64,000 nt of DNA, taken from positions 186,001-250,000 of the forward strand of contig JAEINS010000002.1 in assembly GCA_016342755.1 (NCBI GenBank). Reading direction: 5' to 3'. Both the position numbers and the translations under genes were made by a program. The notes under the pieces were generated by a model that was not told where the DNA came from, ran no database searches, and saw only the letters and a list, made by a program, of their open reading frames with translations. Position 1 is the stretch's first letter, and the number at the start of each line of letters is the position of its first letter. This document shows positions 26,278-26,957 of this stretch, one piece after another. The stretch is from Melioribacteraceae bacterium. GTDB lineage: Bacteria; Bacteroidota; Ignavibacteria; Ignavibacteriales; Melioribacteraceae.

Positions 26278-26321
26278 TTTTTTCTTATTTATTTGTGCAA
26301 TTATTACTTTCAACTCTCATT

Positions 26322-26394
26322 GTCATTCCAGCAATATTTTAGCTGGAATCCATTTTTATTTTTTAGATTCCCGATTAATAATTTCGGGAATGAC
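26322..26394. repeat. Palindromic intergenic unit, copy A (73 bp)
   Basis: The unit begins GTCATTCC and ends with its exact reverse complement GGAATGAC. Inside are two sub-hairpins, ATTCCAGC...GCTGGAAT (26325-26348) and TTCCCG...CGGGAA (26368-26390), joined by a T-rich spacer. It can fold as one long hairpin closed by the ends or as two side-by-side hairpins. Copies B and C in the same orientation follow the nuclease pseudogene. It is 45 nt from the rfbB start. Confidence 0.85.
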
Positions 26395-26432
26395 ATTCTC
26401 TTTTTTTCAATCTTTTTTATAGCCGGAATCAA

Positions 26433-26720
26433 TCAAACTATTGTCTCATACAAATCTTGCCAATCTGGATTATCTTTTTCAATCAACTTAATTTTCTAGA
26501 TTCGTTTCCATTTTTTTAACATTTTCTCTCGGATAATTGCTGATTCAATATTTTCAATAATCTCAAAATATACTAGTTTTTTAATCCCGTATCTAAAAGT
26601 AAAACCTTTTGAAATATCATTTCTATGTTCATATACTCTTCTGCAAAGATCATTGGTAACTCCTATATAAAGAGTTCCGTTCTTTTTACTTGCTAAAATA
26701 TAAACATAATACTGTTTTAT
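26433..26720 (-). pseudogene. Decayed GIY-YIG endonuclease gene
   Basis: The minus-strand frame reads KQYYVYILASKKNGTLYIGV, then TNDLCRRVYEHRND, and further GFTFRYGIKKLVYFE and ESAIIREKMLKKWKRI, a classic small GIY-YIG nuclease (YVYIL...LYIGVT with the catalytic Tyr, Arg and later Glu). Two lesions break it: the expected ATG is ATA at 26718-26720, and an in-frame TAG at 26496-26498 stands where this family has Trp (WKRxWKIKLIE). Past the stop the frame continues with family sequence KIKLIEKDNPDWQDLYETIV to a TGA at 26433. The ~95-codon length equals intact relatives. It lies between palindromic units. Confidence 0.85.
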
Positions 26721-26758
26721 ATTTCAAGACTCCCAATTATTGCTTCCAACTTACTTTC

Positions 26759-26831
26759 TCATTCCAGCAATCTTTTAGCTGGAATCCATTTTTATTTTTT
26801 TAGATTCCCGATTGATGATTTTGGGAATGAC
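26759..26831. repeat. Palindromic intergenic unit, copy B (73 bp)
   Basis: Near-identical to copy A: CTCATTCCAGC opening, GCTGGAATCC, T-rich spacer, TTAGATTCCCGATTGATGAT, TTGGGAATGAC closing. It is 38 nt from the start-codon end of the GIY-YIG pseudogene and only 15 nt from copy C. Both internal hairpins are preserved; differences from copy A are a few substitutions and one indel in the T run. Confidence 0.85.
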
Positions 26832-26846
26832 TTCCAAGTTATCATT

Positions 26847-26915
26847 GTCTTTCCAGCATTTTTTTGGCTGGAATCCATTTTTTTGGGATCCTCGATTGAT
26901 GATTTCGAGGATGAC
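26847..26915. repeat. Palindromic intergenic unit, copy C (69 bp)
   Basis: A more diverged third copy in the same orientation: GTCTTTCCAGC, GGCTGGAATCC, T-rich spacer, then GGGATCCTCGATTGATGATT and CGAGGATGAC. The second hairpin has changed on both arms together (TCCTCG with CGAGGA instead of TTCCCG with CGGGAA), which keeps pairing and suggests the fold is under selection or copied as such. Confidence 0.8.
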
Positions 26916-26957
26916 ATTTAAAAAGTCACGATAAATTTATTTCTTTTTCAATAAAAA

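Follow-up and report, generated by a model that had tools for sequence, protein, structure and literature searches.

The window, a 64-kb stretch of DNA analysed as a whole, contains a broken GIY-YIG nuclease gene surrounded by three direct copies of a twin-hairpin unit of about 73 bp. The stretch is probably a decayed REP-associated locus, in which a small Slx1/UPF0213-like GIY-YIG gene lies among head-to-head pairs of YGTC-tagged hairpins. The association of such genes with such REPs extends across many phyla and can be regarded as firm.

The nuclease pseudogene and its hairpin units

The three copies of the unit are located at 26322-26394, 26759-26831, and 26847-26915, and copies 2 and 3 showed 93% and 78% identity to copy 1, respectively. 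Each unit, read on the plus strand, contains two hairpins whose stems measure 7-8 bp and is built as a head-to-head REP pair with outward TGTC tags, an 8-bp stem starting with AT, and a CCA or CTA tail (Table 1). In copy 1, the TGTC tag is followed by ATTCCAGC, a loop, GCTGGAAT, and CCA; the inverted mate comes next and ends in ATGACA, so that the tags face outward. In copies 1 and 2, a linker lengthens the direct repeat to about 97 bp.

Table 1. Features of the nuclease locus, in window coordinates
Feature	Position	Strand	Description
Linker before dimer 1	26298-26321	+	24 bp; recurs before dimer 2 (26734-26757); family D1
REP dimer 1	26321-26395	+	Hairpins + 26321-26352 (TGTC, CCA) and - 26364-26395 (TGTC, CTA); tags outward
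GIY-YIG nuclease pseudogene	26433-26723	-	97 codons including stop; between copies 1 and 2
In-frame TAG within nuclease frame	26496-26498	-	
REP dimer 2	26757-26832	+	Hairpins + 26757-26788 and - 26801-26832; each with one tag base changed
REP dimer 3	26846-26916	+	+ half (TGTC, 7-bp stem, CCA); - hairpin 26885-26916 (tail CCC)

The nuclease frame scored 55.4 bits against PF01541 (cut-off, 22.6), and an intact relative scored 64.2 bits. The frame is interrupted by an in-frame TAG and lacks a start codon, with ATA at the position where five of six comparable aligned relatives have ATG (one a codon earlier). A previous sequence-only reading had described three palindromic units in the same orientation enclosing a GIY-YIG frame and had taken this copy to be dead; the coordinates, identities, fold, and PF01541 score confirmed the former, and the two lesions bear out the latter.

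The 73-bp unit, which that reading had tied to the nuclease, was indeed found only there when it was searched against its own genome (4,731,990 bases). The only significant matches were the three window copies (E value, 6e-32, 4e-24, and 3e-10), and no fourth significant match was present in the whole 4.7-Mb genome, the next best having an E value of 0.007. This search for the exact unit covered its own genome, and relatives were compared by repeat type. A strict REP pattern was defined as a YGTC tag and an 8-bp stem with at most one mismatch. Three strict YGTC REPs were detected across the 64-kb window, every one at the nuclease locus. Twenty dinucleotide shuffles of the window yielded 0-3 strict REPs each (11 in total), so lone REP-like matches are not rare by chance in such AT-rich DNA; what is non-random in the window is the direct repetition and clustering of the units. 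The pseudogene belongs to the same clade that was found elsewhere among YGTC REPs, and the best reading of the window is a dead locus of the REP-associated GIY-YIG nuclease kind.

Five PF01541 matches were identified in the same genome, two of them in long frames of 610 and 555 codons. Besides the window copy, there were two further small GIY-YIG genes (L001 and L002), each flanked by its own, different direct repeat with TGTCA/TGACA ends. The L001 unit had two matches in the genome, both flanking the L001 gene. The L002 unit had 15 matches, of which seven were within 1 kb of the gene with 97-100% identity and the other eight showed 76-89%. Each small nuclease gene of the genome thus has a repeat of its own. 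At the L002 locus (G000:C34:18464-19783), the 78-bp REP dimer occurs in seven near-identical copies; six lie on one side of the gene at a steady spacing of 159 bp.

Association of small GIY-YIG genes with REPs

PF01541 matches were present in all 146 genomes searched in the order, including the genome of the window, with up to 20 per genome and UvrC-type genes among them. We compared 92 small GIY-YIG loci, among which L061/L127, L062/L128, and L063/L129 are the same places, with 30 UvrC and 30 ParE-toxin control loci. GTCA-tagged inverted repeats within 400 bp were found at 23 of 89 GIY-YIG loci (duplicates removed), compared with 2/30 UvrC and 1/30 ParE loci; with a stricter setting, the counts were 19/92 (three duplicates included) and 1/60 controls. 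GTCA gave the sharpest contrast between GIY-YIG and control loci among the 25 commonest of 256 tags. A repeat of at least 35 bits was common to both flanks in 47/80 GIY-YIG loci, a count that omits eight of the 92 loci with short flanks, the three duplicates, and L045 with its gene at a contig end; the corresponding numbers were 0/30 for UvrC and 5/30 for ParE. Some flank-shared repeats in the order were partial tRNA or gene copies and not palindromes. The ParE loci with similar sequence on both sides were L105, L107, L113, L096, and L122.

In a tree of 105 rows, which was based on few columns and left many forks unresolved, all 24 palindrome-flanked rows fell within one set of 39 rows (SH-aLRT, 88), and none of 500 shuffles of the palindrome-flank label needed as few changes. 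Within the clade of the window (support, 99), eight of the nine rows besides the window copy were palindrome-flanked. The genes were also assigned to groups A, B, and C by sequence pattern, which placed two members of the window's clade in the tree, L002 and L152, in group B. The window copy counts towards group A, of which 8/9 members had strict YGTC REPs within 500 bp. Within the window's order, group B had strict REPs in 2/28 and looser GTCA palindromes in 13/28, and the repeats seen there were longer or of another type. Group C had strict YGTC REPs in 0/78 and a tRNA gene within 100 bp in 41/78; no tRNA was detected beside the 60 control loci, for which the search covered a single stretch of each ParE locus and the ends of the UvrC loci. 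Among the tRNA-adjoining GIY-YIG genes (L167:2515-4900, L057:1376-2420, L125:2560-3518, and others), similar proteins were often beside the same isotype. Some of these genes were in tandem arrays that also contained incomplete tRNA copies broken by a short palindrome, and the L167 array consisted of five near-identical 450-bp units.

To extend the comparison across phyla, 80 loci were taken from a scan with the window's clade. According to the record titles, they came from Alphaproteobacteria, Flavobacteriia, Omnitrophota, Patescibacteria groups, Chloroflexi, Nitrospirae, Armatimonadetes, and others; they are not a random sample but the 80 most similar of 581, and near relatives (several Bradyrhizobium and Flavobacteriaceae) are among them. 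A strict YGTC REP was located within 500 bp of the gene in 68/80 loci, as scored with a pattern drawn up after viewing these same loci, and in the other 12 no strict REP was found within that distance. The distal control and the plasmid set were scored with the same pattern. REP density was 2.42/kb near the gene (189 REPs) and 0.087/kb beyond 2 kb (34 REPs), and outside ORFs of at least 100 codons it was 5.74/kb (91 in 15,846 bp) versus 0.58/kb (12 in 20,716 bp). Shuffled flanks gave an expectation of 0.4 REPs compared with the 189 observed, of which 142 had the CCA tail. Flanks of control genes carried strict REPs in 0/30 UvrC and 2/30 ParE loci. Of the REPs more than 2 kb away, 5/29 exactly matched one of the gene's own REPs, compared with 2.3% for other loci. 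With four loci left out for short flanks, a repeat common to both flanks was present in 44/76 loci (26 direct and 18 inverted) versus 2/132 windows about 2.6 kb away, and 34 of these 44 repeats folded better than shuffles (z below -2). A looser GTCA-palindrome measure separated less, with 26/76 near loci and 15/132 distal windows.

The geometry was scored on the nearest REP of each side in the 52 of 80 loci with REPs on both sides. Tags pointed outward on both sides in 38/52, placing the gene inside an outward-tagged pair; in six and four loci both REPs were on one strand, in four the tags were inward, and the loci remaining out of 80 had REPs on one side only (16) or none (12). Inward tags were a minority also in the plasmid set (2/9), and they occur in the window, where the tags adjoining the gene point inward and the gene is flanked by complete dimers instead of being enclosed within one. 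The gap from REP to matched protein was 32 bp or less in about two thirds of cases. The left and right stems were identical in 23/52 loci versus 5.7% between loci, and none of 10,000 permutations reached as high a value.

From a plasmid collection, 14 of 33 matches were picked to spread over genera. YGTC REPs were found within 500 bp in 10/14, with a density of 2.64/kb versus 0.13/kb far away; no strict YGTC REP was found within 500 bp in Planktothrix, Novosphingobium, Spirosoma, and Rhizobium tumorigenes. Where REPs were on both sides (n = 9), six loci were outward, two inward, and one on one strand. Neisseria gonorrhoeae had 11 dRS3-type copies (ATTCCC-N8-GGGAAT) within 500 bp of the gene. 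The Neisseria gonorrhoeae and Aeromonas caviae records (L317 and L322) are chromosome-sized records filed as plasmids. In Azospirillum lipoferum (L321:4992-5285), sufB and sufC of the Fe-S assembly operon are separated by the GIY-YIG gene, which has REPs on each flank. In Planktothrix (L318:5004-5288), the neighbours of a relative without REPs are an MmeI-type restriction enzyme on one side and drmA (DISARM) on the other. The sequence-only reading had suggested testing whether repeat and nuclease co-occur, and intact relatives were flanked by the same repeat type in most of the loci examined, in the cross-phylum and plasmid sets alike. The other two small GIY-YIG genes of the window's own genome each have a different repeat.

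Searches that started from the repeats led back to the gene. Outward REP pairs separated by 315-345 bp were detected in 3/299 genomes from the family of the Arenibacter record, and pairs with a gap of 405-435 bp in 2/395 genomes from the window's phylum; all five pairs, found without using the gene, enclosed a GIY-YIG gene. The 405-435-bp search had been intended as a control, but it could not serve as one because both of its pairs contained the gene. No outward pair with a gap of 305-335 bp was found in the 395 genomes of the window's phylum. In two Arenibacter genomes, 3/4 and 5/5 copies of one REP sequence (at most two mismatches) were located at the gene. One intergenic Arenibacter site, compared in 18 genomes, held the gene with REPs in three, REPs or a REP hairpin alone in seven, and neither in eight. 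REPs can thus exist without the gene.

Mobility and possible roles of the nuclease

Transposition was considered as a reading of similar copies in which the shared segments end at or near REP tags, and it was rejected, since 5 of 10 pairs share flanking genes. These genes were shared in place in L208/L223, L230/L249, L246/L254, L253/L263, and L198/L214, which indicates that the locus is often inherited in place. In L250/L263, the flanking genes were common but rearranged. The copies of L199/L207, from the same genome, have one flank ORF in common but at different distances, and the L207 contig stops where the element does. Flank homology was absent in L234/L263 and L225/L234; for L226/L256, the flanks matched over two short stretches of DNA but showed no protein match. 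In several syntenic pairs, the best-conserved intergenic stretch spanned from tag to tag. Nuclease and repeats had been proposed in the sequence-only reading to form a small mobile element: the link between the two is strongly supported, but their mobility is something we only infer, given the synteny of half of the pairs.

The nuclease is likely to act on the REPs, and the chances that it has a role in spreading them are about even. By analogy with RAYT and GTAG REPs, it would recognise, cut, and mobilise the hairpins. The tagged hairpin might be recognised when single-stranded or extruded as a cruciform and might then be nicked next to the tag. Repair or replication starting at this nick could maintain, duplicate, and occasionally spread hairpin pairs near the gene.

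The nuclease may instead cut REPs for some other purpose, such as limiting or shaping ssDNA uptake in natural transformation, with the repeats serving as self marks and not as mobile DNA. A 2025 report is said to describe GIY-YIG nucleases of Neisseria, named Ssn (site-specific single-strand), that act on a repeat, and this explanation would suit both that report and the dRS3-type REPs flanking the N. gonorrhoeae relative, just as the syntenic positions in half of the pairs suit a resident function. We nevertheless regard it as unlikely: with only 2-5 copies in some genomes, almost all of them located at the gene, few would be left to serve as a genome-wide mark. The hairpins could also be transcription terminators or could stabilise mRNA, serving the nuclease gene or genes next to it, with slippage or recombination having produced the local copies; this is very improbable. 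In its favour, the units form a local array in direct orientation, and hairpin pairs could act in RNA. Against it, one combination of tag, stem start, and tail is found again in many phyla next to one gene family, on both sides and mostly outward, and a terminator needs no such arrangement.

Low-copy genomes have REPs almost only at the gene, the stems of the two sides match each other, the tags are mostly outward, and such REPs flank hardly any UvrC or ParE genes. These observations argue against the GIY-YIG gene being a passenger, inert on the repeats, for which REP-rich intergenic DNA is a tolerant or preferred insertion site. This possibility, which appears quite improbable, would account for the REPs without a gene at the same Arenibacter site in 7/18 genomes and for the position of the N. 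gonorrhoeae copy in a REP cluster, most Neisseria CGTC elements being in large clusters according to excerpts of Di Nocera et al. (2013; PMC3733652).

Small GIY-YIG nucleases could be the dedicated enzymes of CGTC/TGTC REPs and form a second REP system, present in many phyla and mechanistically unrelated to RAYT, in which outward REP pairs would be element ends and gene-less dimers non-autonomous derivatives; we consider the case for this evenly balanced. The tRNA-adjoining sister group would extend the rule to each such nuclease being beside its own hairpin-forming target. In excerpts of the 2013 study, CGTC REPs such as Neisseria dRS3 and the rickettsial RPEs were left without a known enzyme (PMC3733652). 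A nuclease of about 95 residues is a specific candidate partner, which would make the origin and spread of CGTC REPs directly testable, and the loci would supply nuclease-hairpin pairs for specificity work.

Comparison with known systems

Excerpts of Di Nocera et al. (2013; PMC3733652) describe CGTC/TGTC REPs as having stems of 8-9 bp that start with AT and CCA tails and as forming mostly head-to-head dimers; the CGTC-tagged members include Neisseria dRS3 (Neisseria CGTC-1) and Rickettsia RPE-4 and RPE-6. The window units share the tag, stem start, tail, and dimer form. TGTC was present in four of six hairpin halves, the other two (dimer 2) having one base changed. A stem of 8-9 bp starting with A and T, with at most one mismatch, was found in five of six halves (ATTCCAGC, ATTCCCGA, and ATCCTCGA are examples of the 8-bp stems), and the plus half of dimer 3 departs from this with a 7-bp stem without the A. 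The tail was CCA in the three plus halves and CTA, CTA, and CCC in the minus halves, and all three units were head-to-head dimers with the tags outside. The window loops are 9 nt and not the 4-5 nt of CGTC REP families 1-4, so the units lie outside these four named families; some species are listed with other loop lengths in the same excerpts. Judged by these sequence features, the units are assigned to the CGTC-tagged REP superfamily only and to none of families 1-4. The difference lies in the partner: the window REPs accompany a GIY-YIG gene, whereas the superfamily was reported, in the excerpts, without a dedicated transposase and as not associated with transposase genes (PMC3733652).

Slx1-like/UPF0213 prokaryotic proteins have a single GIY-YIG domain, as here, and the solved relatives found by sequence are the UPF0213 proteins 1ywl and 1zg2. 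They differ in that the Slx1-cluster section of PMC1564403, as excerpted, mentions no repeats beside the genes. A free-standing homing endonuclease cuts and is copied into a gene-less allele, and the Arenibacter site was seen with and without the gene among its 18 genomes. The Ssn nucleases belong to the same enzyme superfamily, and the N. gonorrhoeae relative found here is flanked by dRS3-type REPs. Among the papers searched, none tied GIY-YIG genes to REPs. The Ssn report may already cover part of the nuclease-REP association, in which case the novelty of the present finding is smaller.

RAYT is the known partner of the other REP superfamily, GTAG, according to excerpts of Di Nocera et al. 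(2013; PMC3733652). RAYT/GTAG-REP REPtrons, as excerpted there, resemble the present loci in combining a small nuclease-type gene with its own kind of tagged hairpins, often head-to-head. They differ in that the enzyme here is GIY-YIG and not an HUH tyrosine transposase, and the tag is YGTC and not GTAG. Five relatives scanned with Pfam and NCBIfam had no transposase family match, the RAYT HUH transposase included, and all five matched GIY-YIG-type models. By this analogy, the window locus is best read as comparable to a RAYT gene with its GTAG REPs.
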